Below, in pieces: positions 4,392 through 18,012 of a stretch of DNA of 64,000 nucleotides. This DNA comes from Alphaproteobacteria bacterium LSUCC0684 (GTDB lineage: Bacteria; Pseudomonadota; Alphaproteobacteria; Puniceispirillales; UBA1172), in the NCBI GenBank assembly GCA_041228335.1, contig CP166130.1, forward strand, positions 1,140,638 through 1,204,637. Reading direction: 5' to 3'. How positions within the stretch are numbered: position 1 is the stretch's first letter; every line of letters begins with the position of its first letter. Both the position numbers and the translations under genes were made by a program. Below the pieces are notes generated by a model. It had not been told where the DNA came from. It saw nothing but the letters and a program-made list of their open reading frames with translations, and ran no database searches.

Positions 4392-5300
4392 TCAGGAGGT
4401 TTCAGGGAAGGTTGCCGCAAGCGCGGTGATGATCTGTTCAAGAAATTTTGATGCCGCAACCGAAAGAACGCGGTCCTTCAGATGCCCGACATGCAGCACC
4501 CCGTGTTTGACATCCCGCTCGCTGAGGGGGATCGCGCGGAGCCTGCTTTCTCCGCCTGCCTTTACCGCTATCGGAACCTGAAAGGACAGGGCATGTTCCT
4601 TTTCAAGATAGGTGTGGAGAAAATCGAGGCTGTCGCTTTCCCCGACCACGGCAAGGGGCAGGGGAGTGATCAGCAGGCTGAGATCAATCAGCTGGCGTAT
4701 GCCGTTCCTCTTTGACGGCAGGATAACCGGGTATCCGATACAGTCCCGCAGGCGCATTTCACTCTTCCCGGCAAGCGGATGATCTGCCGCCATCAGGACA
4801 TGGACTTTCTGCGGTGCCGTTGCCATGACCTTGAATTGCGGTGATTGGACAGGTTCCATCGTCAGCGCGATATCAGCTTCGATCCGGGTGAGGGCGGTTT
4901 CGGCTTCCGCTCCGTGGGCGCGTTTGACCTCAAACGTGACTTGCGGATATTGATCCCGATAAAGGGCGAGCTGTTCCGGCAGAAAGGTTTTCAGCGCTTC
5001 AGGTGAGCTGATAATCCGGATATGACCCCGGCGCATGCCGGCAAGATCCGCCATCTGGGATCTGACGCGTTCAAGATCGGAAAACTGGCGGCGGACAAAA
5101 TCAACGAAGATCTCGCCGGCCGTGTTCAGCCTTACCCCTGACGGCAGGCGCTCAAAAAGCGGGTATCCAAGCTCTTCCTCAAGGGCGAGGATGCGGCGGT
5201 TCAGCGCCGTTGACGTAATCGCAAGCTTTTCCGCAGCTTTGCGGATAGATCCCTCGCGGCCGACGGTTTCAACATATTTCAGATTGATCAAGGCCCGCAT
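4392..5300 (-). CDS. LysR-family transcriptional regulator
   Basis: DNA-binding regulator with an N-terminal winged helix-turn-helix (roughly residues 1-60, with ETVGREGSIRKAAEKLAITS and LNRRILALEEELG) and a C-terminal periplasmic-binding-protein-like effector domain. The ATG at 5300 has GGAG 8 nt upstream and gives 302 aa, the usual family size. An ATG at 5345 is also in frame with AGGA upstream and would add 15 residues. With the shorter start, the palindrome at 5329-5347 lies in the leader, where an autoregulatory site would be expected. The target is unknown; the convergent MFS gene is a candidate. Confidence 0.87.
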   Translation of the reverse strand: MRALINLKYVETVGREGSIRKAAEKLAITSTALNRRILALEEELGYPLFERLPSGVRLNTAGEIFVDFVRRQFSDLERVRSQMADLAGMRRGHIRIISSPEALKTFLPEQLALYRDQYPQVTFEVKRAHGAEAETALTRIEADIALTMEPVQSPQFKVMATAPQKVHVLMAADHPLAGKSEMRLRDCIGYPVILPSKRNGIRQLIDLSLLITPLPLAVVGESDSLDFLHTYLEKEHALSFQVPIAVKAGGESRLRAIPLSERDVKHGVLHVGHLKDRVLSVAASKFLEQIITALAATFPETS

Positions 5301-5328
5301 TCCGGCAACTCCATGTGCTGATATGGTG

Positions 5329-5347
5329 TGATGCAAAAAATGCATCA
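5329..5347. promoter_or_regulatory. Perfect inverted repeat upstream of lysR-type gene
   Basis: TGATGCA-AAAAA-TGCATCA is a perfect 7-bp inverted repeat separated by five A residues. It lies 29 bp upstream of the preferred LysR start and about 100 bp upstream of glnK, so it could be an operator for autoregulation. LysR boxes are usually T-N11-A and this repeat has a shorter spacer, so the assignment is inference. Confidence 0.4.
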
Positions 5348-5446
5348 CCTTCCTGCAAAATTAGCAGAATTACATATCACTTCAAGCTGGTATTAGAAAA
5401 ATGTGCTTGACCCCCGTCAGGCTAAACAGAGAAAGGAAAGCCCAAG

Positions 5447-5785
5447 ATGAAATACATCATTGCGATTGTTCAGCCCAGCCGGATCGAGGATATCCAGCGG
5501 GCACTCAGTGAAATTGGTGTTTCAGGCATGACCGTTTCCGAAGTCAAGGGGTACGGACGCCAGAAGGGAAAGACCGAAATCTACCGAGGCGCGGAATACA
5601 CCATCGATTTCATGCCGAAAATCAAGGTTGAACTGGCTGTTGAAGCAACGCTCGCGGCCAAGGTCACCGAAGCGATCACCGATGTCTGCAAAACCGGACG
5701 TATCGGCGATGGCAAGATTTTCACCTTTGAGCTCAGCGAGGCCATGCGGATCCGGACAGGTGAAACTGGTCAGGCTGCTTTATAA
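5447..5785 (+). CDS. glnK: Nitrogen regulatory protein P-II (GlnK type)
   Basis: Small trimeric signalling protein of 112 aa, the normal PII length, which reports nitrogen and energy status. The T-loop includes RGAEYTIDF with Tyr51, the uridylylation site of the family, and the C-terminal part carries the TGRIGDGKIF segment that contributes to nucleotide binding. AGAAAGGAAAG lies just upstream of the ATG. It is followed 26 nt later by amt, so it is assigned as GlnK, the PII protein that blocks AmtB, rather than GlnB. No convincing sigma54 promoter was seen upstream. Confidence 0.95.
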   Translation: MKYIIAIVQPSRIEDIQRALSEIGVSGMTVSEVKGYGRQKGKTEIYRGAEYTIDFMPKIKVELAVEATLAAKVTEAITDVCKTGRIGDGKIFTFELSEAMRIRTGETGQAAL

Positions 5786-5811
5786 GCACGTTTTTTCAAG
5801 GAGTACCCCCG

Positions 5812-7125
5812 ATGTTACGTTCACGTTTTGCCAAATTCGCCGGTCCTGCCAGTCTTGGCGTGATCCTGGCCCCGCTTCCAGCGCTTGCCGCGCCGGATGC
5901 CGAAACAGCTTTCATTTTCAACAGCCTGTCCTTTCTGGTGCATGGCTTTATCGTCATGCTCATGGCGGCTGGATTCTGCATGCTTGAGGTCGGCCTCGTA
6001 CGGTCCAAGAACGCGACGGTTCAGTCCACCAAGAATATCGGTCTTTATTCCATCGCCGGCCTGATGTACTGGCTTTGCGGCTACAACCTCATGTATATGG
6101 ATGTATCGGGCTATATTGGCACGGTGCTGCCCTGGTCGCCTGCAGATGCGTCCATAACCGATGCCGGATATACAGGGGATGGCACGGATTATGCCGCCTC
6201 CTCGGACTGGTTTTTCCAGATGGTGTTTGTCGCCGCCGCCGCCTCGATCGTATCAGGTGCCGTCGCCGAACGTGTCAAACTGACAACATTTCTTATCTTC
6301 TCCGCTGTTTTGACGGGGATCATCTATCCTATTCAGGGTTCCTGGACATGGGGTGGCGGCTGGCTCAGTGAGATGGGCTTCAGTGACTTTGCCGGGTCCA
6401 CCATCGTTCACTCTGTTGGTGGCTGGGCCGCGCTCACCGGTGCGATCATCATCGGCGCACGCAAAGGCAAGTACACAGCTGACGGGGGTATCCGCCCCAT
6501 GCCAGGATCCAATCTGCCGCTGGCGACACTGGGGACGTTCATTCTCTGGTTCGGCTGGTTTGGCTTCAATGGCGGCTCCCAGCTGGCCATGGGCTCGGCG
6601 GCGGATGTCGCGGCTATCGCCAATATCTTCGTCAATACGAATATCGCGGCTGCCGCCGGTGTCGTGGTTGCCATCCTCGCAACGCAAATCCTCTATGGAA
6701 AGATCGACCTGACCATGGCGCTGAACGGCGCACTGGGCGGGCTGGTTGCCATCACGGCCGAACCGCTTGCGCCGACGCCGATGCTTTCGGCTTTCATCGG
6801 CGGTGTCGGGGCTCTCCTGGTGGTGATCACCGTTCCTCTCCTGGACAAGTTCAAGATTGATGATGTTGTGGGGGCCATTCCGGTTCACCTTGTGGCCGGT
6901 ATCTGGGGCACGCTTGCCGTGTGTATTTCAGGCGGGGCCAGTTTCGGTGTGCAGCTGACCGGCATCATCGCCATCGGGGTCTTTGTCACCGTAACCTCAG
7001 CTATCATCTGGTATGTGCTGAAAGCCATCATGGGGCTTCGTCCTTCGGAAGAGGATGAGGTGAGCGGTCTTGACCTTTCCGAATGCGGGCTTGAATCCTA
7101 CCCGGATTTCACCCGCCAATCCTGA
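5812..7125 (+). CDS. amt: Ammonium transporter Amt
   Basis: Inner-membrane ammonium channel (437 aa) with a cleavable-looking signal sequence ending near residue 24 and about 11 membrane helices. It has the family segments AGFCMLEVGLVRSKN and DFAGSTIVHSVGGWAALTGA, the latter including the first pore histidine, and a second pore histidine in VHLVAGIWG. AAGGAG precedes the ATG. Cotranscribed with glnK, the usual arrangement, and followed by a clear intrinsic terminator. Confidence 0.95.
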   Translation: MLRSRFAKFAGPASLGVILAPLPALAAPDAETAFIFNSLSFLVHGFIVMLMAAGFCMLEVGLVRSKNATVQSTKNIGLYSIAGLMYWLCGYNLMYMDVSGYIGTVLPWSPADASITDAGYTGDGTDYAASSDWFFQMVFVAAAASIVSGAVAERVKLTTFLIFSAVLTGIIYPIQGSWTWGGGWLSEMGFSDFAGSTIVHSVGGWAALTGAIIIGARKGKYTADGGIRPMPGSNLPLATLGTFILWFGWFGFNGGSQLAMGSAADVAAIANIFVNTNIAAAAGVVVAILATQILYGKIDLTMALNGALGGLVAITAEPLAPTPMLSAFIGGVGALLVVITVPLLDKFKIDDVVGAIPVHLVAGIWGTLAVCISGGASFGVQLTGIIAIGVFVTVTSAIIWYVLKAIMGLRPSEEDEVSGLDLSECGLESYPDFTRQS

Positions 7126-7148
7126 TCATATCAAGGCAGTCCCCCTCG

Positions 7149-7174
7149 AACCGGCCCATAATGGGCCGGTTTTT
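7149..7174 (+). terminator. Intrinsic terminator of glnK-amt
   Basis: An inverted repeat with arms AACCGGCCCAT and ATGGGCCGGTT (inner pairs probably open as loop) runs directly into TTTT. It lies 23 nt after the amt stop codon and before the next gene. Confidence 0.85.
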
Positions 7175-7233
7175 GCTTGCCTTAAGGGAAAGGCTACGCC
7201 AACCTTCATCAGGGAAATAAAAGGTGTTGGGTC

Positions 7234-8157
7234 ATGATTGTTATTATCGGGGCAGGGGCCATGGGCTCTGTTTATGCAGGACTTTTTGCCAAATCCGGGG
7301 CGGCGGTTTCGGTTGTTGATATCTGGCAGGATCATATCAAGGCAATCCAGCAGAACGGGCTTCGTGTCAGCGGGTTTTCCGGTGATCATACGGCCGGGAA
7401 TATCACCGCCCTCGGGGCGGAGGATCACCTCCCTGAAGCCGATCTCTATATCATCGCGACAAAGGCATCCGGGGTCAGGGCGGCGGCGCGCAAGATTGCC
7501 CGGGAAGGCATATCTGCTGCCCCTGTTCTGACGATCCAGAACGGGTTCGGCAGCGGCGCCATTGCCGCGGAGGAAATTTCGGCTGATCGCCTTCTTCTCG
7601 GCGTTGCCGAAGGGTTCGGGGCATCGCTGAAAGCGCCCGGCCATGCCCATCATTCCGGGATGACCCGGATCAGACTGGGGGAATATAACGGCGGCATGAC
7701 CGAACGCCTGCAATCCATCACCGATATCTGGACAGGGGCTGGTTTCCCGGCTGAATCCTATGGTGATATCGACCAGTTGATCTGGGAGAAATTTGTCTGC
7801 AATGTCACGCTGAGCGCAGCCTGCACCGTGAGTGGCCTGAATATCGCCGAGTTGCGGGCTGAACCTGAACTCTGGCAGATGGCTCTTGCCTGCGGCAAGG
7901 AAGCCTATGCCGTGGGCAAGGCAAAGGGCGTTGCCTTTTCCTATGATGATCCGGTTGCCTATGTCACCGCATTTGCGGACAAACTGGGGGAAGCCCGGCC
8001 TTCGATGGCGCTGGATCATCTGGCCCGGCGACCTTCGGAGATCGATATCCTCAACGGGATGGTGCCTGTTCTTGCACAAGAAGTCGGTATGGATGCACCG
8101 GTTAACCATGCCCTTGCCGCGCTCGTCCGGCTGAAGGAAAAGGAATTCAACGCCTGA
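7234..8157 (+). CDS. Ketopantoate reductase family protein (PanE/ApbA-like)
   Basis: NADPH-dependent 2-hydroxyacid dehydrogenase fold of 307 aa. The N-terminus has the Rossmann motif IIGAGAMGSVYAGLFAKSGA and the C-terminal helical domain carries the WEKFVCNVTLSAACTVSG region typical of PanE-type proteins, with the conserved Lys in it. It may be 2-dehydropantoate 2-reductase of coenzyme A synthesis, but many paralogues with other 2-oxoacid substrates have the same motifs. It stands alone between the amt terminator and a convergent BKACE gene, which does not favour a pantothenate context. Confidence 0.8.
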   Translation: MIVIIGAGAMGSVYAGLFAKSGAAVSVVDIWQDHIKAIQQNGLRVSGFSGDHTAGNITALGAEDHLPEADLYIIATKASGVRAAARKIAREGISAAPVLTIQNGFGSGAIAAEEISADRLLLGVAEGFGASLKAPGHAHHSGMTRIRLGEYNGGMTERLQSITDIWTGAGFPAESYGDIDQLIWEKFVCNVTLSAACTVSGLNIAELRAEPELWQMALACGKEAYAVGKAKGVAFSYDDPVAYVTAFADKLGEARPSMALDHLARRPSEIDILNGMVPVLAQEVGMDAPVNHALAALVRLKEKEFNA

Positions 8158-8193
8158 GGAGGAATTGCTTTCGGAATTTGTCGTCGGGACGGG

Positions 8194-8991
8194 TCAAGCG
8201 AAAAGCCGGGCGGCTTCGGCAGGTGATTTCGGGGTGAGGCGTTCTGCCAGTTGGGCAACAAGGGCCGAACTTGACGTGGCCGTGCTGCCATCCTTAAGGG
8301 CGAGATTGTTTTCAAAACCAACCCGCGCATGGCCGCCTGCAGCCGCGGCCTTGAGCATGGAATCATATTCCTCTGGGCCAAAGGCACAGATCATCCAGGA
8401 GCGGATGAAGCCCTTGTCCGCCGCAAGAAACGGATCAAGCTCTTCGGGGCTTGATACAAAGCCGGGATTGTATTTGCCAAGAACATAGAGCACATCCAGC
8501 GGGCGGTCAGGCAGCATTTCGCGCGCGTGAAGCTGGCGCAGAAGCTCAAGATCGCTGATATCATAAAGAATATATTGAATTCTTGTGCCGCTTGCCACCG
8601 CATCGCCCAGCGCATTCCGGGCAAAATCAATCGCCGACGGTGACTGATCGGCTGTTATCTCACGGATTGCCACTGAAGCATAGGCAGGCTGGACCTGAAG
8701 AAGGCAGGAGGCCTGTTCTTTCGGGGTGAACACGCCAACGGCTTCGGTGGTAATCTGGCAGAGCATATCCGGAACATCACGCTTCATGGCGTCAAGAAGC
8801 TCCCGGTAAAGGCCGTGATCAAGAACATGTGCCCCATCCCTGTTCCGGACATGGGCGTGAAGCATCGCGGCCCCGGCCTCACGGCAGGCGCGGGCTTCGG
8901 CGACAACTTCATCGACGGTAATCGGCAGATTGGGGTGGTCAGCTTTGGTTTTGCGGGCACCGTTCGGCGCGGCCATGATGAGCGTTGACAT
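8194..8991 (-). CDS. BKACE family protein (beta-keto acid cleavage enzyme)
   Basis: Zn-dependent TIM-barrel enzyme of the 3-keto-5-aminohexanoate cleavage (DUF849) family, which condenses a beta-keto acid with acetyl-CoA. It has the N-terminal APNGARKTKADHPNLP segment and the metal-binding HAHVRNRDG motif, and ends with a helical region containing GFENNL. I choose the ATG at 8991 (265 aa) over a GTG 21 nt upstream because GGGAAAGAGG directly precedes it, although spacing is tight. The substrate is not determined by sequence; it converges with the ketopantoate-reductase-like gene. Confidence 0.85.
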   Translation of the reverse strand: MSTLIMAAPNGARKTKADHPNLPITVDEVVAEARACREAGAAMLHAHVRNRDGAHVLDHGLYRELLDAMKRDVPDMLCQITTEAVGVFTPKEQASCLLQVQPAYASVAIREITADQSPSAIDFARNALGDAVASGTRIQYILYDISDLELLRQLHAREMLPDRPLDVLYVLGKYNPGFVSSPEELDPFLAADKGFIRSWMICAFGPEEYDSMLKAAAAGGHARVGFENNLALKDGSTATSSSALVAQLAERLTPKSPAEAARLFA

Positions 8992-9092
8992 CCTCTTTCC
9001 CAATTTGTTCACCCGAAATTCATGTTTGGGCTAGCCAAGGCAGGGCCGGTATACTAATACATAAAGAAAACGAATGAGGGAGATATTTGGTT

Positions 9093-9508: not shown

Positions 9509-9982
9509 ATGTTGAGGACCGGTCTTCATTTTGTCATCCTGATGCTGCTCTGGCTGTTGATGTCCGGCCATTACACGGTGCTGGTCACCGGGCTCGGCGT
9601 GGTGAGCGTGGCTTTCGCCGTGCTGATGGCAAAAAGGATCAATGCCGCCGATGCCGAAGGCCTCCCCCTTCACATGGTCAAGCGACTGCCCGGATATTCG
9701 ATCTGGCTTTTCCGTGAAATTCTGATGTCCAATATCGCCACGGCCAGAGTCATTCTGGGGAACAGGCCTGATCCGGAAATTTTCCATGTCCCCTACAGCC
9801 AGAAGACGCCAGCCGGTGTTGCGGCTTATGCAAATTCCATCACCCTGACCCCGGGCACGGTGACGGTTGATATCGATGAGACCGGGTTTCTGGTGCATGC
9901 GCTTGATGGCAGTTTCGGCGATGACGTCCGGTCAGGTGAGATGGACCGCCGGATGAGCATAACGGAAGGCGGTGCGGGATGA
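9509..9982 (+). CDS. mnhE: Mrp cation/proton antiporter subunit E
   Basis: First gene of the Mrp-type operon, 157 aa, with two or three N-terminal helices followed by a hydrophilic cytoplasmic domain, as in MnhE/MrpE. The segment SITLTPGTVTVDIDETGFLV is characteristic of the family. It overlaps mnhF by 4 nt, indicating translational coupling. MnhE is a membrane subunit of the multi-protein Na+/H+ (or K+/H+) antiporter. Confidence 0.9.
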   Translation: MLRTGLHFVILMLLWLLMSGHYTVLVTGLGVVSVAFAVLMAKRINAADAEGLPLHMVKRLPGYSIWLFREILMSNIATARVILGNRPDPEIFHVPYSQKTPAGVAAYANSITLTPGTVTVDIDETGFLVHALDGSFGDDVRSGEMDRRMSITEGGAG

Positions 9983-10242
9983 TCGCTGTTGCCGCTCTCG
10001 CCGCCCTTGCGGTGGCAATTCTGATTTCGCTGATCCGGGTTGCGCTCGGGCCGACGGCATTTGATCGGGTGCTGGCGGTCAACAGTATCGGCACGATGAT
10101 CATCCTCGGCATAGCGCTGCATGGATTTGCCATGGGACGCCCTGAATTTGTAGATATTTCGGTTCTCTACGCCATTCTGAATTTCATTGGCACCTTTGCC
10201 GTGCTCAAACTGTTCAGCACCGGCACGCTAGGGGACAGATAA
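9979..10242 (+). CDS. mnhF: Mrp antiporter subunit F
   Basis: Three-helix membrane protein of 87 aa with the family segments RVALGPTAFDRVLAVNSIGT and PEFVDISVLYAILNFIGTFA. It overlaps the genes on either side (4 nt with mnhE, 1 nt with mnhG), as in compact Mrp operons. Confidence 0.92.
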   Translation: MIAVAALAALAVAILISLIRVALGPTAFDRVLAVNSIGTMIILGIALHGFAMGRPEFVDISVLYAILNFIGTFAVLKLFSTGTLGDR

Positions 10243-10583
10243 TGGATAGCGTGATTTTCATCCTTGCCGCTATCTGCTTTGCCATCGGCAGTCTTGCCAT
10301 CCTGATCGGGGCGTTCGGTCTTGTCCGGATGCCGGATGTGTTTTCACGCATTCATGCCGCGGGGATGGTGGATACCGCCGGCGTGGCGTTCATGATCCTC
10401 GGGATGATATTTATCTCACCGTCATGGCTCGTGACGGTGAAGCTTTTGCTCATTGGTGTTTTTCTTTTCTTCACCAGCCCCATTTCGGGGCATGCCATCG
10501 CCCTTGTTGCCAGGCAATGCGGGGTCAAGCCCGAGGGCAGGGACCTGACCGTTTCCACCAGCAAAAAGGGGAAAAAGTCGTGA
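10242..10583 (+). CDS. mnhG: Mrp antiporter subunit G
   Basis: Membrane protein of 113 aa with three helices and the family segment GAFGLVRMPDVFSRIHAAGM near residue 27. Its TGA stop overlaps the GTG start of the next gene. MnhG is a small structural subunit related to MbhC of membrane-bound hydrogenase complexes. Confidence 0.92.
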   Translation: MDSVIFILAAICFAIGSLAILIGAFGLVRMPDVFSRIHAAGMVDTAGVAFMILGMIFISPSWLVTVKLLLIGVFLFFTSPISGHAIALVARQCGVKPEGRDLTVSTSKKGKKS

Positions 10584-11146
10584 CCGTGCTGCTGATCAAT
10601 ATTTTCCTTGTGTCGATGATGGTGGTCATTGCGGTGCTTGTCTTGCGCACCCGCCGATTGTTTGCGGCGATCGTGATGGCGGGGGCATATTCGCTCATCT
10701 CTGCTGCGATGTTCGTCAATCTGGATGCGGTGGATGTGGCCTTTACCGAAGCTGCGGTCGGGGCCGGCATTTCAACCGTGCTCCTGCTCGCGGCCATGGC
10801 CCGCCTGCCTGCCGAGGAAAAGGAAGGAAGGGTGCAGGTTGCTCTTCCGCTTTTGATCTGCCTCATCGCCGGGGGGATGCTGGTGGTGGCTGTTTTCAGC
10901 CTGCCGCCGTTCGGGGCACCTGATGCGGTTGTCCATCTGCATGTGGCGCCTCGGTACCTCGCGGAAAGCAATGACGTCCTTCATATCCCCAATGTCGTCA
11001 CCACGGTGCTGGCCAGCTATCGCGGGTTTGATACATTGGGCGAGACCATCGTGATCTTTGCCGCCGGTCTCGGGGTGCTGCTGCTGCTCGCGGGCCGGAC
11101 CCGGGATGCGGCGGAAGATGATCGCCGTGAGGAGGAGGGCGAGTGA
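10580..11146 (+). CDS. MbhD/MbhE-like Mrp subunit (equivalent of MrpA C-terminal part)
   Basis: Membrane protein of 188 aa. A GTG start at 10580 overlaps the mnhG stop by 4 nt; longer readings into mnhG are not credible. The first part (to about residue 75) is an MbhD/DUF4040-type module with the conserved acidic stretch VDVAFTEAAVGAGISTVLLL. The later part has NVVTTVLASYRGFDTLGETI, the MbhE-like segment that forms the C-terminal end of long MrpA proteins. So this gene appears to supply as a separate protein what MrpA carries as its C-terminal domains. Confidence 0.82.
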   Translation: MTVLLINIFLVSMMVVIAVLVLRTRRLFAAIVMAGAYSLISAAMFVNLDAVDVAFTEAAVGAGISTVLLLAAMARLPAEEKEGRVQVALPLLICLIAGGMLVVAVFSLPPFGAPDAVVHLHVAPRYLAESNDVLHIPNVVTTVLASYRGFDTLGETIVIFAAGLGVLLLLAGRTRDAAEDDRREEEGE

Positions 11147-11583
11147 TGAAATCCAATCCTGTCTTCCGCACGACAACCAAGATCCTGTTTGCACCGATCA
11201 TTCTTTATGGTCTCTATGTCCAGTTTCATGGTGATTTCGGGCCCGGCGGGGGGTTCCAGGCCGGGGTGATCATTGCGGCGGCCTTTATTCTCTACGGAAT
11301 TGTTTTCGGGCTCAAGGATGTCAAGAAAGTTGCGCCGCCCGGGATTGTTGCCGTGCTCATGGCCGTCGGCGTGATGATCTATGGCGGGGTTGGTGTCGCA
11401 AGCCTCATTCTTGGTGGTGCGTATCTCAATTACAGTGTTCTTGCCCATGACATGGCCCATGGCCAGCATTACGGGATATTGCTGGTGGAACTGGGCGTGG
11501 GGGTCACGGTGACCAGCGTCATGCTGGGGCTCTACTATGCTTTTGCCGGTTTTAACGGTGCCGGGAGGGGAGATGATGGCTGA
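11143..11583 (+). CDS. mnhB: Mrp antiporter subunit B
   Basis: Four-helix membrane protein of 146 aa. It has the strongly conserved FHGDFGPGGGFQAGVIIAAA segment near residues 23-42, diagnostic of MnhB/MrpB. It overlaps the preceding gene by 4 nt and the following mnhC by 1 nt. Confidence 0.93.
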   Translation: MMKSNPVFRTTTKILFAPIILYGLYVQFHGDFGPGGGFQAGVIIAAAFILYGIVFGLKDVKKVAPPGIVAVLMAVGVMIYGGVGVASLILGGAYLNYSVLAHDMAHGQHYGILLVELGVGVTVTSVMLGLYYAFAGFNGAGRGDDG

Positions 11584-11975
11584 TGCTTGAAACACTCCTG
11601 ATGCAGTGGAACTATCTTGTCTTTGTCATGTTGATGATGACCGGACTTTACATCGTGATTTCACGCCGGAATCTGGTCAAGAAACTGATCGGTCTCAGCA
11701 TTTTCCAGACCGCGTTGTTTCTGTTCTATATCTCCCTTGGCAAGGTTGCGGGCGGGACGGCGCCGATCATTGTTCCTGATGGCGCCGAAAGCGGTGTTCT
11801 CTATTCAAATCCGCTTCCACATGTCCTGATCCTGACGGCCATTGTGGTCGGCGTTGCGACAACGGCGCTCGGGCTGGCGCTGGTGCTCCGCATCCGTGAA
11901 GCCTTCGGCAGCATCGAGGAAGATGAAATTCTTGCCATGAAGACGAAAGAAGACCAGGAGAGCAGGGCCGAATGA
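11583..11975 (+). CDS. mnhC: Mrp antiporter subunit C (NuoK-like)
   Basis: Three-helix subunit of 130 aa, homologous to NuoK of complex I. The family segment NPLPHVLILTAIVVGVATTA is present near residues 77-96, with the conserved His-Val-Leu-Ile-Leu-Thr-Ala-Ile core. It overlaps mnhD by 4 nt. Confidence 0.93.
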   Translation: MLETLLMQWNYLVFVMLMMTGLYIVISRRNLVKKLIGLSIFQTALFLFYISLGKVAGGTAPIIVPDGAESGVLYSNPLPHVLILTAIVVGVATTALGLALVLRIREAFGSIEEDEILAMKTKEDQESRAE

Positions 11976-13468
11976 GTGTGTTTTTCGAAAATCTTCCGGC
12001 ACTCGTGGTCGTAACGCCGCTGCTTATGGCGGCGGTCACAGCGGTCATGCCAGCACGTCTGGCCAATCTCGCGTGGATGCTGGCCCTTGCCAGCACCGCG
12101 ACAAGCCTGATCGCCGCATGGCTGAACAAAGCCGCCGCCGGGGGGGAGAGGATCTCCTATGCGCTTGGCGGATGGCCGCCTCCCTGGGGGATTGAATTCG
12201 TGACCGACGGGGCATCCGGTCTTGTCACGGTGGTGATTTCAAGCTTGGCCTTTGCTTCAACTATTTACGCCAAGCCATTGATAGAAAATGAAATTGCAAA
12301 GGGTGATATTCCCCGTGTTTATGCCGCCTGGCAGCTGACGGTTGGTGCGCTGCTTGGTCTGGTGATGACGGCGGATGCTTTCAATCTTTTTGTCTTCCTT
12401 GAAATCTCCGCCCTTTCGGCGGTGACATTGATTGCCATGGGGGCAGGGAAAGACCGGCGTGCCCTTATCGCGGCCTATAATTACCTCGTGATCGGCGCGG
12501 TCGGGGCGACATTTTACGTCATGGGGGTCGGGTTTCTCTATGCCATGACCGGCACGCTCAACATGGCTGACCTGGCCGAACGCCTGCCTGATGTAACGTC
12601 GCGGGCGCCGGTATATGTCGGCATGGCGTTCATGGTGGCGGGGATTTTCGTTAAAGCCGCGGTATTTCCGGTGCATATGTGGCTTCCAGCCGCCTATGGA
12701 TTTGCGCCGACGGCCGTCTCTGCCCTGCTTGCCGCGGTGGCAACGAAAGCCTCCATCTATGTGCTGGGCCGCCTGATCTTCACCGTGTTTCATGATCTCG
12801 GCGAGATCGTGGATCTCATGCTTGAATGGGTGGTGCTGCCGGTATCGCTCATGGCGATTTTTGTCGGCACTATTCTGGCCATCTGGGCGCGTGACCTCAA
12901 GACGCTTTTGGCCCAGTCGTCGATTGCCCAGATCGGGTATATCACGCTTGGCTTCGGGCTTGGGACAAGCGCCGGTATCAGCGCCGGTTTCATCCATATC
13001 GCCAATCACGCGCTGATCAAGGGCGGGATGTTCATGGCGGTGGGAGCGATCGCGCTCGCGCTTGGGAAAAGGGCCGGGATCGGTACGATCGAGGGATTTG
13101 GCCGGCTCATGCCTGTTACCGCGTCGGCCCTGACGATTTGCGGGCTCTCGCTGATCGGTCTGCCCCTGACCGCCGGGTTCATTTCCAAGGTCTATCTTGT
13201 GCTGGCGATCATCGCATCCGATTACTGGATGATTGCGGCGCTGGTGCTGTTGTCGAGCGCGCTTTCGCTGATCTATCTCTGGAAAATGATGGAGGCCTTG
13301 TGGATGAAACCTGCTCCGCATGGTGTGATCATAAAGGAGAATCCAGCCGTTTACCTGCCGCTATGGCTGATCGCGCTTGCCAATATCTGGTTCGGGATTG
13401 ATGCAACCCTGGTGACGTCATCGGCTGAAGCCGCCGCCGCCGCCCTGATGGCAGGAGCCGGATCATGA
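11972..13468 (+). CDS. mnhD: Mrp antiporter subunit D (proton-conducting membrane subunit)
   Basis: Large NuoM/NuoN-like antiporter subunit of 498 aa with about 14 membrane helices. Helix 5 has the conserved glutamate region FLEISALSAVTLIAMG and helix 7-8 has HMWLPAAYGFAPTAVSALLA followed by TKASIYVLGR, the TK-type sequence typical of MrpD. It overlaps its neighbours by 4 nt on both sides. It is expected to form one proton or cation half-channel. Confidence 0.92.
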   Translation: MSVFFENLPALVVVTPLLMAAVTAVMPARLANLAWMLALASTATSLIAAWLNKAAAGGERISYALGGWPPPWGIEFVTDGASGLVTVVISSLAFASTIYAKPLIENEIAKGDIPRVYAAWQLTVGALLGLVMTADAFNLFVFLEISALSAVTLIAMGAGKDRRALIAAYNYLVIGAVGATFYVMGVGFLYAMTGTLNMADLAERLPDVTSRAPVYVGMAFMVAGIFVKAAVFPVHMWLPAAYGFAPTAVSALLAAVATKASIYVLGRLIFTVFHDLGEIVDLMLEWVVLPVSLMAIFVGTILAIWARDLKTLLAQSSIAQIGYITLGFGLGTSAGISAGFIHIANHALIKGGMFMAVGAIALALGKRAGIGTIEGFGRLMPVTASALTICGLSLIGLPLTAGFISKVYLVLAIIASDYWMIAALVLLSSALSLIYLWKMMEALWMKPAPHGVIIKENPAVYLPLWLIALANIWFGIDATLVTSSAEAAAAALMAGAGS

Positions 13469-14919
13469 TGGATGTCACGACGGCTATGTGGGTTGGAATA
13501 TTCGCCCCTCTGGTGGTGGCAATCCTGATCCCGTGGCTTGCCGTGCGGTCGAACTGGCGTGACGGCGCCGGGCCTCTCGGGGCGGTTATCAGCTTTGTCG
13601 CGGCCCTGACCGTGGCGCAGGATGTTCTGGCAGGAAACACGCCCGAACTCGTACTGGTCACGATTGCCGAAGGGCTTGAGATCAGTTTCCGTGTCACCCC
13701 GCTCGGGGCGGTGTTCGGATGCGTTGCCTCCGGCCTCTGGATTGCGGCCGCGCTCTATTCTACCGGATACATGCGCGGCAATCATGAAAAGCACCAGACA
13801 CGGTTTGCGGTCTGCTATGCCATCGCGGTGCATGCGGCCATGGCGATCGCCTGGTCCGGCAATCTGATGGTGCTGTTTATCTTCTATGAGATTCTGACCT
13901 TTTCGACGTATCCTCTTGTTACACATAAGGAAAGCCAGGAAGCCATCCGTGCCGGACGGCTTTACATGGGGATACTGGTCGGCACATCAGTGATCCTGCT
14001 GCTGCCGGCGGTCGTCTGGGTCTGGATGGTGGCGGGAACACTCGATTTCACCAAAGGCGGCGTACTGGCGGGCAGGCTTGCGCCTGAATATGCCGCGGCC
14101 ATGGTGGCGCTTTTCGCCTTTGGCGTCGGCAAGGCGGCCCTGATGCCGATCCACCGCTGGCTGCCTGCGGCCATGGTGGCGCCAACGCCGGTTTCAGCGC
14201 TGCTCCACGCGGTTGCGGTGGTCAAGGCAGGGGTATTCACCATCCTGATGGTCATGGTGTATATCTTCGGGATAGATTTTCTGCGGATAACAGGTGCATC
14301 GGAGTGGCTCGCGTGGCTTGCCGGGTTTACCATCCTCGCGTCATCGATCGTGGCGATCACCAAGGATGACCTGAAGGCAAGGCTTGCCTATTCCACCATC
14401 AGCCAGCTTTCCTATATTGTGCTTGGTGCGGCACTGGCGACATCATCGGCGGTCGAGGGCGGGGTTGTGCATATCGTGATGCATGCCAGCGCCAAGATCA
14501 CCCTCTTTTTCTGTGCCGGGGCGATTTATGTGGGCGCGCATCTGACAAAGATTTCCGAACTTGATGGATTAGGGCCGAGGATGCCGCTTGTTTTTATTGC
14601 CTTCTTCCTCGGGGCGCTTTCGATCATCGGTATTCCGCCGATGGGAGGCAGCTGGTCCAAATTCATGCTGATGACGGGATCCATCGAGGCCGGAATGCCG
14701 GTGATGGTCGCGGTGCTGGCGATATCATCCCTGCTGAATGTGTATTACCTCCTTGAGCCGGTCTTCCGGGCATTTTTCCGCCCCACAAACACCGAGATCA
14801 AGATAGACAGCCCGATCCTGACCGTTCTGCCGCCGGTCGCGACAGCCATACTTAGCCTGGTGCTGTTCTTTGCCATCGGTTACCTGACCCCTTTCAGCCA
14901 GATGATGGTCTCGCCATGA
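13465..14919 (+). CDS. Second antiporter-like subunit (MrpA N-terminal / NuoL-like)
   Basis: NuoL/M/N-family membrane protein of 484 aa with about 14 helices. Its discharge-channel segment HRWLPAAMVAPTPVSALLHA followed by VAVVKAGVF is the form found in MrpA and NuoL rather than MrpD. It lacks the C-terminal MbhD/E/B-like domains of long MrpA proteins; a separate gene at 10580 codes for those. I infer that this gene and 10580-11146 together replace MrpA. Confidence 0.85.
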   Translation: MMDVTTAMWVGIFAPLVVAILIPWLAVRSNWRDGAGPLGAVISFVAALTVAQDVLAGNTPELVLVTIAEGLEISFRVTPLGAVFGCVASGLWIAAALYSTGYMRGNHEKHQTRFAVCYAIAVHAAMAIAWSGNLMVLFIFYEILTFSTYPLVTHKESQEAIRAGRLYMGILVGTSVILLLPAVVWVWMVAGTLDFTKGGVLAGRLAPEYAAAMVALFAFGVGKAALMPIHRWLPAAMVAPTPVSALLHAVAVVKAGVFTILMVMVYIFGIDFLRITGASEWLAWLAGFTILASSIVAITKDDLKARLAYSTISQLSYIVLGAALATSSAVEGGVVHIVMHASAKITLFFCAGAIYVGAHLTKISELDGLGPRMPLVFIAFFLGALSIIGIPPMGGSWSKFMLMTGSIEAGMPVMVAVLAISSLLNVYYLLEPVFRAFFRPTNTEIKIDSPILTVLPPVATAILSLVLFFAIGYLTPFSQMMVSP

Positions 14920-15167
14920 AAAAAATTACGGAAACAAGTATTCGACTAAAGGAGATGGGCGCGTGGATGACACTCATTCTTTTTGGCCTTGGTGTTTTGC
15001 TCATCGTTCTGGAATTTATTGTTCACCGTCATGGTGAAACCAATCTTGAGGATATTCCGCTGTTTCCGGCTTTCTATGCTTTTGGGTCGTCCGTTTTTGT
15101 GGTGATTGGCGGAATCATTTTGCGTAAATTTATCATGCGGAGTGAGGATTATTATGGCGATGATTGA
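14916..15167 (+). CDS. Small two-span membrane protein within the Mrp operon
   Basis: Protein of 83 aa with two hydrophobic segments (about residues 17-35 and 52-69), a charged loop between them (HRHGETNLED) and an acidic tail ending DYYGDD. It overlaps the upstream gene by 4 nt and the downstream gene by 14 nt, so it is almost certainly translated with them. It matches none of the seven classical Mrp subunits; a structural or assembly subunit specific to this antiporter type is inferred from position only. Confidence 0.75.
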   Translation: MKKITETSIRLKEMGAWMTLILFGLGVLLIVLEFIVHRHGETNLEDIPLFPAFYAFGSSVFVVIGGIILRKFIMRSEDYYGDD

Positions 15168-16848
15168 TCTCACTCCCGGATTGGTTATGATGCTGGCGGC
15201 ATTTGTTGTGCCGTTTATCCCTCATCATATTCGCCAGATTGTCATGCTTGGGGCCATAGCCCTGTCCGCCATGAGCCTTTCCGCCGGCGAAGGTTTTCAT
15301 TGGATAGTACCGGTTCTTGGCCAGCATCTCATCCTTCACCATGCGGATAATCTGACGTTTCCATTCGGGGTGATTTTTCATCTCGCCGCCGCGCTCAATG
15401 TAATTTATGGCTGGCATGAGAGAAAACCGATGGAACATACCGCTGGCCTTGCCTATGCAGGGGCAGCGATAGCGGCGGTGCATGCAGGCGATCTTATCAG
15501 CCTCTTTATCTGGTGGGAAGCCACAGCGGTCACGTCGGTATTCCTCATCCTCGCGTCGGGTGGAGAGCGGGCCAAGAACGCCGCCATGCGGTATCTTCTC
15601 GTCCAAGTCGCTTCAGGTGTGTTGCTTATTGCAGGGGCGGCTTTTCTCTGGCAGGAAACCGGAAGCTGGTGGTTTGGTGCGATGGAGCTCGGATCCGTCG
15701 GCACATGGTGCATCTTCCTTGCCTTCGGGATAAAGGCCGCATTTCCGTTTCTTAATGGCTGGTTGCAGGATGCCTATCCCGAAGCCACGGTTATCGGCAC
15801 GGTCATGCTTTCAGCCTTCACAACTAAACTGGCGATCTATGCGCTGGCACGCGGATTTGCCGGAACGCCGGAACTCATCTGGATTGGCGCAGCCATGACA
15901 GCCTTTCCTGTTTTCTTCGCAGTTATTGAAAATGATCTCCGCCGGGTTCTTTCGTTCAGCCTCAATAACCAGTTAGGCTTCATGATCGTCGCAATAGGTA
16001 TTGGAACCGAACTCGCGATCAATGGCGCGGTGGCGCATGCGTTTGCCCATATTATCTACAAATCCCTTTTGTTCATGTCGATGGGGGCGGTGCTGTATCG
16101 CGTCGGTACGGTAAAGGCGTCCGAACTTGGCGGGCTATACCGGTGCATGCCCATGACCATGGTATTTTGTATCATCGGGGCGATGTCGATTTCGGCCTTT
16201 CCGCTGTTTAGCGGATTTGTGGCCAAAGCGCTGATCATGTCGGCCACCGGTTATGAAGGTCTTGTTGTGATTTATATTATACTCCTTGCCGCATCGGCCG
16301 GGGTGCTGCATCATTCGGGTATAAAGATTCCATATTTCACCTTCTTTGGACATGATGGTGGCCATGACGTTAAAGAGGCGCCGGTGAATATGCTGATAGC
16401 CATGGGTTTGGCGAGTGTTTTCTGTATTGGCATTGGGGTATTGCCACAGCTGTTTTATCAGATACTGCCCTTCGCCATCGACTACCAGCCCTATGATGCC
16501 AGCCATATCGTCGGGCAGCTTCAGGTGCTGATATTTGCCATGCTCGCTTTTGTTTTCCTCATGCGATCGGGTTATTATCCGCCAGAAATCCGTTCTACTG
16601 TGCTGAACGCCGACTGGTTTTATCGCCGTCTTGCGCCGATGATCCTCGGGCCGGTGATGCGCGGGGTGCTGAGGCTTGCGCAAGGTCTCGACGGGCTGGT
16701 CATCCGGTCAGCCAGAACAATTATTGCAGGCGTGCGGTATCTTTCGCATCTGCCGATGGCAGGGCCGGTGATACCAGGTCCGGCGGCACTTGTTCAGCTT
16801 GGGGTGCTGACGCTGCTGCTGATATTGATCTATGTTGCGCACGGTTAG
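15154..16848 (+). CDS. Third antiporter-like subunit (NuoN/MnhD-like)
   Basis: Large proton-conducting membrane protein of 564 aa. The ATG at 15154 has GGAGTGAGG upstream and is preferred to an in-frame TTG 48 nt earlier. It has the helix 5 IWWEATAVTSVFLILAS segment with the conserved acidic residue and NGWLQDAYPEATVIGTVMLS followed by TTKLAIYALARGF. A C-terminal extension of roughly 100 residues ends in one more membrane helix. It ends the antiporter operon, overlapping the DUF192 gene by 17 nt. Confidence 0.87.
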   Translation: MAMIDLTPGLVMMLAAFVVPFIPHHIRQIVMLGAIALSAMSLSAGEGFHWIVPVLGQHLILHHADNLTFPFGVIFHLAAALNVIYGWHERKPMEHTAGLAYAGAAIAAVHAGDLISLFIWWEATAVTSVFLILASGGERAKNAAMRYLLVQVASGVLLIAGAAFLWQETGSWWFGAMELGSVGTWCIFLAFGIKAAFPFLNGWLQDAYPEATVIGTVMLSAFTTKLAIYALARGFAGTPELIWIGAAMTAFPVFFAVIENDLRRVLSFSLNNQLGFMIVAIGIGTELAINGAVAHAFAHIIYKSLLFMSMGAVLYRVGTVKASELGGLYRCMPMTMVFCIIGAMSISAFPLFSGFVAKALIMSATGYEGLVVIYIILLAASAGVLHHSGIKIPYFTFFGHDGGHDVKEAPVNMLIAMGLASVFCIGIGVLPQLFYQILPFAIDYQPYDASHIVGQLQVLIFAMLAFVFLMRSGYYPPEIRSTVLNADWFYRRLAPMILGPVMRGVLRLAQGLDGLVIRSARTIIAGVRYLSHLPMAGPVIPGPAALVQLGVLTLLLILIYVAHG

Positions 16849-17263
16849 GCTTGCTTTTGTCGGGATTCTGCTTTCGGCTGCCGCCGGTGCCGCGGATACG
16901 ATTACCCTCATACTGAATACCGATAAAGGGCAGCATCAGCTAGCGGCAGAACTTGCCGATACACCAGCGGAACGGGCGCACGGGCTCATGTGGCGGGAGG
17001 ATTTCGGGGCAGGGGACGCGATGCTCTTTGTTTTTCCCGAAGCGGCCCCAAGGGCCTTCTGGATGAAAGATACGCATGTTTCCCTTGATATCATCTTTTT
17101 TGCGGATGACGGCTCCTGGATCAATACCCATGCGCATACGACACCGTTCAGCACCGAAAGCCTGCCTTCTGAAGCTCCGGCCAGATATGTGCTGGAATTG
17201 CCTGCCGGAACTGCGCTGAAACTCGGCCTGGGTGAGGGAACTTACCTGAAACTGCCGGAATAA
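16832..17263 (+). CDS. DUF192 family exported protein
   Basis: Secreted or periplasmic protein of 143 aa with a signal peptide of about 20 residues (MLRTVRLAFVGILLSAAAGA) and one DUF192 domain. The family motifs RAHGLMWR and FWMKDTHVSLDIIFF are intact. Function is unknown for the family. It starts inside the last codons of the antiporter gene, so it may be read from the same transcript, but a role in ion transport is not implied. Confidence 0.88.
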   Translation: MLRTVRLAFVGILLSAAAGAADTITLILNTDKGQHQLAAELADTPAERAHGLMWREDFGAGDAMLFVFPEAAPRAFWMKDTHVSLDIIFFADDGSWINTHAHTTPFSTESLPSEAPARYVLELPAGTALKLGLGEGTYLKLPE

Positions 17264-17322
17264 TCTGGCGAAAGTGACTTGAGGGTTGATTTAAAGAAAA
17301 ATACTGGATAGAAAGCCAGTGT

Positions 17323-17399
<77 letters not shown>

Positions 17400-17475
17400 T
17401 TTCCCGAAGGCTTTTCTTTATATCTCGCTTCTCTGCAAACGCGCCTCGATTTTTTCATCCATGGCACCTATCCTG

Positions 17476-17504
17476 TTGACAGGGTGAAGCAGGCGATTTA
17501 AGAC
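17476..17504 (+). promoter_or_regulatory. Possible promoter of tRNA-Pro(CGG)
   Basis: A perfect -35 hexamer TTGACA at 17476-17481 lies 36 nt upstream of the tRNA. The -10 region is weak: TAAGAC at 17-nt spacing or TTTAAG at 15-nt spacing. Confidence 0.35.
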
Positions 17505-17517
17505 GAAATCATCCGAT

Positions 17518-17594
17518 CGGAGCGTAGCGCAGCCTGGTAGCGCACCTGCTTCGGGAGCAGGGGGTCGGAGGTTCGAATCCTCTCGCTCCGACCA
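17518..17594 (+). tRNA. tRNA-Pro (anticodon CGG)
   Basis: A 77-nt cloverleaf with acceptor CGGAGCG/CGCTCCG, anticodon stem CCTGC/GCAGG and loop TTCGGGA (anticodon CGG), T loop GTTCGAATC, encoded CCA. It shares the D arm and much of its body with the tRNA-Pro(TGG) just upstream, consistent with an old tandem duplication that diverged in the anticodon. Confidence 0.97.
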
Positions 17595-17706
17595 TTTTTC
17601 CCGTTCTGTTTATATTGGATCTTTCACCGCCTCAAGGCGCGGTGCAAGATAACTTGATTTTGCCCGATAGCAGGCCTAGAAATGATGCATAGAATGGGAG
17701 AAGAAC

Positions 17707-18012
17707 ATGCGTGTTCGTATTTATCAGCCAGCCAGGACGGCCATGCAGTCCGGCAAGGCCAAGTCAGCGGAATGGGTGCTTGAATACCCGCGGCAGGACA
17801 AGGCCGTGCCTGATGCCCTGATGGGCTGGCAGTCTTCAGCTGATACGCTGAAGACGGTTCACCTTCATTTCGATACTTCGGCGGATGCCATCGCCTATGC
17901 GGAGGCAAACGGGATGGAGTATGTCCTTCTCAGAACAGGGCAACGCCGCCAAAAACTCAGGGCCTATGCGGATAATTTTGCCTTCGGCAAACGTCAGGCC
18001 TGGACACATTAG
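17707..18012 (+). CDS. Complex I accessory subunit, NDUFS4-like (ETC_C1 family)
   Basis: Protein of 101 aa, the usual size of the alphaproteobacterial homologues of mitochondrial NDUFS4 (the 18-kDa/AQDQ subunit). It shows the family features: N-terminal RIYQPARTAMQSGKAKSAEW, the GWQSSADTLKTVHLHFDT segment, and a C-terminal YADNFAFGKRQAWTH. Mitochondrial NDUFS4 stabilises the NADH-dehydrogenase module. AGAAGAAC precedes the ATG. It sits alone between tRNA genes, away from any nuo genes. Confidence 0.9.
   Translation: MRVRIYQPARTAMQSGKAKSAEWVLEYPRQDKAVPDALMGWQSSADTLKTVHLHFDTSADAIAYAEANGMEYVLLRTGQRRQKLRAYADNFAFGKRQAWTH

Follow-up and report, generated by a model that had tools for sequence, protein, structure and literature searches.

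A group-3-type Mrp operon of Alphaproteobacteria bacterium LSUCC0684 that probably encodes a three-unit, complex-I-like antiporter arm

We analysed a stretch of 64,000 nucleotides from the genome of Alphaproteobacteria bacterium LSUCC0684 (contig CP166130.1, positions 1,140,638 to 1,204,637; this whole stretch is called the window, and positions are counted from its first letter), which carries at 9509-16848 on the + strand a ten-gene operon for an Mrp-type antiporter. The reading that we favour, and that we consider fairly probable, is that the products form a group-3-type ten-subunit Mrp with a three-unit, complex-I-like arm in which the antiporter subunit D3 is outermost, and that this complex exchanges protons for a cation. 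What the sequence itself shows is the gene set, the clades of the antiporter subunits D1, D2 and D3, the proton residues kept in all three, the length of the lateral helix of D3, a small protein S that is found only in this module, and altered residues in the cation path. The gene order, from open reading frame (ORF) coordinates and Pfam, is E-F-G-(MbhD/E)-B-C-D1-D2-S-D3, and all neighbouring genes of the operon overlap, by 1-14 bases. The features, with lengths in amino acids (aa), are as follows.

9509..9982, + strand: MrpE/MnhE, 157 aa (Pfam MNHE, 4.2e-28)
9979..10242, + strand: MrpF, 87 aa, with Asp29 kept and Asn35 where solved Mrp has Asp35 (Pfam MrpF_PhaF, 7.3e-16; alignments)
10242..10583, + strand: MrpG, 113 aa (Pfam PhaG_MnhG_YufB, 1.3e-23)
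10580..11146, + strand: DUF4040 protein (MbhD+MbhE), 188 aa from the GTG at 10580 (Pfam MbhD, 4.8e-18, and MbhE, 1.2e-6)
11143..11583, + strand: MrpB, 146 aa (Pfam MnhB, 4.1e-26; NF009162 above cut-off)
11583..11975, + strand: MrpC/NuoK-like protein, 130 aa (Pfam Oxidored_q2, 5.9e-22; best solved relative MbsG)
11972..13468, + strand: D1, MrpD-like antiporter subunit, 498 aa, with E144, K228, K259 and K406 (Pfam Proton_antipo_M, 1.5e-53; in the tree with MrpD)
13465..14919, + strand: D2, second antiporter subunit, 484 aa, with E142, K223, H248, K254 and K399 (Pfam Proton_antipo_M, 6.6e-53, and Proton_antipo_N; own clade)
14916..15167, + strand: S, two-helix membrane protein, 83 aa, C-terminus RSEDYYGDD (conservation; predicted structure)
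15154..16848, + strand: D3, third antiporter subunit with a NuoL-type C-terminal extension, 564 aa from the ATG at 15154 (NF009310, 658 bits against a cut-off of 564; own clade; model)
16612..16746, + strand: part of D3, predicted 45-residue lateral helix, residues 488-532 in a 565-residue frame (AlphaFold2 secondary structure; length ruler)

The starts given for the DUF4040 gene (GTG 10580) and for D3 (ATG 15154, as against the TTG at 15106 chosen by the ORF tool) are, from the sequence, the more likely ones; in the analyses D3 was numbered from 15151 (565 residues) and the DUF4040 protein from 10574. The original prediction, made from this sequence, had given the same gene order, and by Pfam and coordinates all ten genes are indeed present on the + strand; it was also right that domains of the C-terminal MrpA type and antiporter domains lie in separate genes and that a third antiporter-like subunit is present (Pfam Proton_antipo_M, 1.3e-35 for D3). 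The DUF4040 protein is the equivalent of the C-terminal transmembrane helices (TM) 17-21 of MrpA, as seen in its alignment to MbhD, MbsD and MrpA, and the best solved relative of D1 is MbsH (2.3e-63). Group 3 Mrp is defined by an operon without mrpA and with one or more mrpD (PMC8415708). By gene content the operon is a group 3 Mrp, as it has no mrpA, more than one antiporter gene, and E, F, G, B and C together with the MbhD/E domains, and this layout is widespread and broadly known.

The recurrence of this operon order is far beyond chance. The class was sampled evenly with 289 genomes; 75 of these, the own genome counted, had D3 at a threshold of E <= 1e-30, and 77 loci were fetched from the other 74. 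The complete ten-gene set, or a nine-gene form in which DE and B are fused, was present in 66 of these 77 class loci; S lay between D2 and D3 in 72, four (L061, L062, L064 and L290) had the operon without S, and L060 is a fragment at a contig end. A scan of named genomes for D3 confirmed at least 560 relatives, and the best-scoring 80 of these were used, all of which had S; since these named-genome loci lean to close kin, the module is represented more fairly by the 77 class loci. Among the matches listed, the module occurs in Alphaproteobacteria, Gammaproteobacteria (Zhongshania, Shewanella), Rhodopirellula and other Planctomycetes, and metagenome-assembled genomes of Nitrospira and Desulfocapsaceae, and the closest named D3 matches are SAR116 and Puniceispirillum records. 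D1 or D2 was split or frame-broken in three of the best 80 loci (L105, L143, and L130 with D1/D2 in many frames), and in L093 the other operon genes were on the strand opposite to D3; these broken frames and the strand mismatch are probably faults of draft assemblies. Apparent D2 fusions in five loci (767-1000 aa) were rejected when the translations showed overextended open frames. In L063 (genome G214) D2-S-D3 stands at 4797-8176 without the remaining Mrp operon and with no adjoining NuoM/NuoN in 11.6 kb, and its S is weak.

No Pfam or NCBIfam model matched S, a Pfam scan of 28 S members gave weak scattered matches only (best shown 0.0031), and a PDB profile search with S gave a single match at E 0.39 that was judged to be chance, and by these searches a known family was ruled out. 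When a profile built from 28 S proteins (own and G107 included) was used to search 398 genomes of the phylum independently of D3, there were 26 matches in 23 genomes, 24 of them between D2 and D3; of the other two, one follows D2 at a contig end (L162) and one is weak and without neighbours (L178), so that 25 of 26 are located in a D2/D3 module. Judged by this distribution, S is a subunit of the D2-D3 module and a companion seen only with it. Its model is a two-helix hairpin (residues 6-35 and 50-73) with a predicted local distance difference test score (pLDDT) of 83 and a predicted template modelling score of 0.46, the tail R-x-E-x-Y-Y is nearly invariant across 30 rows, and from the positive-inside rule a cytoplasmic location is probable for both ends.

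The same three genes are found in complex I operons. On pSymA of S. meliloti the order is nuoJ-nuoK-D2-S-D3-nuoM-nuoN-nuoA-B-C-D-E-F, D2-S-D3 lies likewise within complex I operons of Ensifer adhaerens and of two alphaproteobacteria of one family, and an S profile made without complex I members matched S in all four scanned complex I loci (E 6e-18 to 6e-17). In this 'green' complex I two MrpD-like subunits substitute for NuoL (PMC9040806), and from sequence these two are D2 and D3, with S between them. As D2-S-D3 occupies NuoL's place in these operons, gene order identifies it as a transferable distal-arm cassette. The same position in place of NuoL would fit the view that joining complex I is what D2-S-D3 is really for, with the Mrp genes as a carrier, which we hold to be extremely improbable: the own genome retains a normal NuoL, the cassette sits inside a complete Mrp operon in 66 of 77 class loci, and green D3 has a longer lateral helix, which makes it a separate, adapted lineage.

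This helix also bears on the order of the units in the arm. In an AlphaFold2 model of D3 made with 27 sequences (pLDDT 81.6), the chain ends with the 45-residue helix 488-532 and then a final TM at 544-564, as in MrpA and NuoL, and when the model was searched with Foldseek the top four hits, with TM-scores of 0.76-0.79 on the query, were chains of MrpA and NuoL, and the fifth was MrpD. The confidence in the helix is middling, with a pLDDT of about 64-75 over most of it and below 50 at both ends. D2 has 14 TM by hydropathy, the last ending at 469, and no room for a lateral helix. As a ruler we used the number of residues from the tyrosine of DWxY to the glycine of TG, with S-less and short D3 and duplicates dropped. 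It was 21 in MrpA (19 of 20) and 49 in NuoL (30 of 31; 44 in E. coli), and in Mrp-type D3 it was 54 in 85 and 52 in 21 of 113, whereas in green D3 it was 73 in all five, and the green helix is thus about 19-21 residues longer. For D3, hydropathy centres made too noisy a ruler, as the amphipathic helix was often taken for a TM. The lateral helix of MrpA spans one unit, MrpD, and that of NuoL spans two, M and N. The ruler length of D3 is on the two-unit step, and D1 and D2 would then separate D3 from the cation module; the arm is therefore probably D1-D2-D3 in line, and the length of the D3 helix fits one that braces two antiporter units. The helix of MrpA has been reported to brace its complex (PMC7419157), and the complex I of Manganitrophaceae has 26 residues more than the green one and one more unit (PMC9040806).

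Two quick trees were made, one of 100 rows and one of 55 rows after removing long rows. In the 100-row tree D2 is one clade (support 100), bacterial, Haloarcula and green D3 form one clade (22 rows, support 100), and D1 groups with MrpD, NuoM and NuoN (89); the D1, D2 and D3 clades each include a haloarchaeal member, and the D3 of Peptoclostridium, Rhizobium rosettiformans and Aminobacter stand apart from other D3 on long branches. In the 55-row tree D1 joins MrpD (94) and D3 goes with MrpA and NuoL at a support of only 54. A single clade of D1, D2 and D3 was rejected by the approximately unbiased test (p-AU 0.0216), and in the trees neither D2 nor D3 groups with MrpD, which rules these two out as recent MrpD paralogues, an origin that the original prediction had named for all three as the outcome that would count against it. 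Some of its labels have to be changed. D2, which it called NuoL/MrpA-N-like, is in a clade separate from MrpA-N/NuoL, and D3, which it called NuoN-like, has its own clade and a lateral helix of the NuoL type. Its description of an MrpA split in two is also not upheld, as D2 is its own clade, a union of D2 with MrpA and NuoL is neither shown nor rejected (p-AU 0.466), and domains of the C-terminal MrpA type and antiporter domains are also separate in Pyrococcus (PMC8415708), so that on these comparisons the unfused state of the MrpA modules may be ancestral.

The residues of the proton paths are kept in all three units. The TM5 Glu, TM7 Lys, TM8 Lys and TM12 Lys (E. coli residue numbers were checked against the sequence) are present in 109, 109, 108 and 109 of 110 D1, in 115, 117, 117 and 116 of 118 D2, and in 119, 104, 119 and 119 of 121 D3; in D3 of LSUCC0684 they are E122, K194, K225 and K358 (E123, K195, K226 and K359 in the 565-residue frame). 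Glu57, Asp151 and Glu155 of the DUF4040 protein (59, 153 and 157 in the frame begun at 10574) align with MrpA E706, D792 and E796 and are each kept in 102 of 103, and mutants of these MrpA residues confirmed their essential role (PMC7419157). In the small subunits MrpF Asp29 is kept in 102 of 104 and MrpC Gln42 is invariant in 108 of 108.

The genome, a single contig of 2,704,644 bases, has six Proton_antipo_M genes, namely D1-D3 and three at 1.361-1.366 Mb that are NuoM and NuoN (by the tree) and NuoL (above the TIGR01974 cut-off); this NuoL is normal, and NuoL/M/N are about 0.2 Mb from the Mrp operon. The original prediction had allowed for a full-length MrpA that is encoded elsewhere and works with the operon, and no match to one was found in the own genome at E 1e-150. 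Among 142 class genomes 19 have a full MrpA, and only three of these 19 (G034, G087 and G091) also have D3, which rules out full-length MrpA as a general partner of the operon. A search of the own genome for NQR2/RnfD, NhaA and CPA1/2 gave no match, and for the NhaC and CitMHS/NhaD-type families only matches below cut-off were obtained, NhaB not being searched. As NQR2/RnfD, NhaA and CPA1/2 have no match, the gene content makes the complex a leading candidate for the cation/proton exchange of the cell. Its most likely function, from sequence, is that of an electrogenic cation/proton antiporter, and Na+ is most likely the ion transported, because this is a marine cell without NQR, RNF, NhaA or CPA1/2 matches.

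The assembly, unit order, direction, ion and stoichiometry that we infer are these. The Mrp cation module (E, F, G, B, the DUF4040 protein and C) would bear the arm D1-D2-D3, with D3 outermost and its lateral helix running back across D2 and D1, and S would be placed at the D2/D3 pair. Driven by the proton motive force, protons would probably enter via each of the three units, and coupled charge changes would drive the cation out at the junction of the DUF4040 protein, C and D1. Three proton paths may thus serve one cation site, in which case the exchange would be electrogenic and perhaps of a higher H+ per cation than in a two-unit Mrp. A larger cation/proton stoichiometry had also been suggested by the original prediction and is possible.

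Several observations weigh against this reading. The ruler rests on two motifs and not on structures, and its anchors are weaker in MrpA, where 15 of 20 have the glycine and 17 of 20 the Tyr/Phe. The distance between the centres of TM15 and TM16, a noisier measure, is about 60-72 in MrpA, about 89-95 in those D3 that were cleanly called, 103 (median) in NuoL and 110-113 in green, which keeps the order MrpA < D3 < NuoL < green with an uneven spacing. Four of the 77 class operons lack S, and so do three-antiporter Mrp operons (L219, L220, L221 and L222) on plasmids of a haloarchaeon, Haloarcula marina, a clostridium, Peptoclostridium, and two rhizobia, R. rosettiformans and Aminobacter, from which it follows that S is not required for three units; in the Peptoclostridium operon MbhD and MbhE are separate genes. 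The TM7 Lys is replaced by Asn in 14 of 121 D3, and the group 3 Mrp of Pyrococcus has been proposed to run reversed at low pH, with Na+ in and protons out (PMC8415708). The cation path departs from the classical one: at MrpF position 35, 95 of 104 have Asn, where all 12 classical Mrp compared and the three solved chains shown have Asp, and at MrpC position 46, 102 of 108 have Phe/Tyr, where each of the 12 classical Mrp has His or Asn.

MrpC of LSUCC0684 has Thr43 and Phe46 where the solved MrpC (6z16) has His37 and His40. As 12 classical alphaproteobacterial MrpC have Asn or Tyr at the position of His37, that histidine is not general and only position 46 separates the group from classical Mrp. 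Haloarcula has Gln42, Phe46 and MrpF Asn35, Peptoclostridium has Phe46 and Asn35, and R. rosettiformans and Aminobacter have Phe46 and Gln35. From these alignments the changes at MrpF 35 and MrpC 46 look like a signature of the group, and they make the transported ion uncertain. They also speak against a plain Na+/H+ Mrp in which D2 and D3 add stability or capacity and the exchange and its stoichiometry are those of a classical two-unit Mrp. Such a plain machine would agree with the conserved proton and DUF4040 residues and with published accounts of group 3 Mrp that have several mrpD genes (PMC8415708, PMC5703873). It would have to accommodate that most of the group has Asn for MrpF Asp35 and Phe for the MrpC His/Asn. 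It would also have to accommodate the retention, through long divergence, of a complete set of proton residues in each of the three units, which argues against idle units, and we regard a plain Na+/H+ Mrp as possible but rather unlikely.

A partner complex encoded elsewhere had also been suggested by the original prediction, which had noted that hydrogenase genes are absent. No hydrogenase or complex-I-type redox module was found among the 56 window proteins scanned with Pfam, the rest of the genome not being searched, and the only complex I piece in that scan was an NDUFS4-like accessory gene. There is one lead to a partner: coxG, coxS, coxL and coxM adjoin the operon in many relatives (for example L040, L041, L043, L049, L096, L097, L103, L119 and L145), though not in this genome, where no cox genes stand beside the operon and a form II cluster S-L-M-G lies at about 0.56 Mb, about 0.59 Mb away from it. 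Of 74 genomes, 25 have CoxG no more than 12 kb from D3, against 0.51 expected by random placement, an expectation that ignores shared descent; any CoxG is present in 50 of the 74 (79 copies). The 25 linked genomes are spread over 15 of 46 family codes, and in 22 of them CoxG is downstream of D3 on the same strand, the nearest at 90 bp. CoxS was near the operon in 20 of 77 class loci, 19 of them also with CoxG. The active site of CoxL is AYRGAGR in nine of the ten class loci that cover it (AVRGAGR in L274) and in eight of eight covering loci among the best 80 of named genomes. AYRGAGR is the form II motif, the activity of form II enzymes has been called unresolved, and CoxG is quinone-binding (PMC13240472). 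From this it could be argued that the complex is, in some members of the group, a redox- or quinone-linked machine that works with the form II Mo-hydroxylase (CoxS-L-M) and CoxG or serves the ion economy of this enzyme. The distance of the own cox cluster, the neglect of shared descent in the expected number, the lack of a gene for an MbhM/NuoH-like coupling subunit in the operon (Pfam) and the confinement of the cox matches listed among the best 80 to alphaproteobacterial or SAR116 records, with none in gammaproteobacterial, planctomycete or Nitrospira records, all speak against it, and we find it quite improbable. That the operon represents a distinct class of ion machine, with a three-unit arm sealed by S and a cation path so neutralised at conserved sites that the machine moves another ion or runs reversed, and in many Alphaproteobacteria tied to the form II Mo-hydroxylase and CoxG, is in our view unlikely.

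At 16832-18012 of the window a DUF192 ORF, which shares 17 bases with the end of D3, is accompanied by two tRNA-Pro genes and the NDUFS4-like accessory gene; near the operon DUF192-like genes were present in 16 and NDUFS4-like genes in six of the best 80 loci. On the 5' side (5812-9012) are an ammonium transporter, a PanE-like reductase and, on the opposite strand, a beta-keto acid cleavage enzyme, with no visible tie to the operon. SufE-like and ABC transporter genes are neighbours common to few loci or to SAR116 only.

Complex I, Mrp and hydrogenase-type pumps share antiporter units. For the question of how many ions are moved per unit, the systems compared here offer a natural series in steps of one unit, in which the lateral helix grows by roughly 19-28 residues per added unit, with S as a small subunit not seen apart from the D2-D3 pair, and the frequent form II cox neighbours give a handle on an enzyme whose activity has been called unresolved (PMC13240472). 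S, its sharing with green complex I and the frequent CoxG/cox neighbourhood look undescribed; no description of S or of the cox link was found in the literature searched, where S has no name to search by.

Of the known systems, the stand-alone Mrp of Pyrococcus furiosus, mrpEFGBB'CD, shares with the LSUCC0684 operon the order E-F-G-(MbhD/E fused)-B-C-D and has neither mrpA nor a redox module; it has one antiporter subunit, to which the LSUCC0684 operon adds D2, S and D3 (PMC8415708). In the group 3 Mrp of 'Ca. Nitrospira alkalitolerans' mrpD is likewise followed by two NuoM/NuoL-like genes, which its authors took to be additional mrpA/mrpD-like genes, and in the available text of that account the small protein, the lateral helix and the changes at the cation site are not mentioned (PMC7784846). 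Classical group 1/2 Mrp (6z16, 7qru, 7d3u) has in common with the operon the E, F, G, B, C and D subunits and the carboxylates of the C-terminal part of MrpA, whereas the LSUCC0684 operon is without a fused MrpA, has three antiporter units and has lost MrpF Asp35 and the His/Asn at MrpC position 46. Among the Thermococcales MBH/MBS complexes (6cfw, 6u8y) are the closest solved relatives of D1, the DUF4040 protein and C, which are MbsH, MbsD and MbsG, and unlike the LSUCC0684 operon these systems have hydrogenase or sulfane reductase genes. Finally, green complex I has Nuo redox/quinone subunits in its operon and no Mrp cation module there, but it shares with the LSUCC0684 operon the D2-S-D3 cassette.

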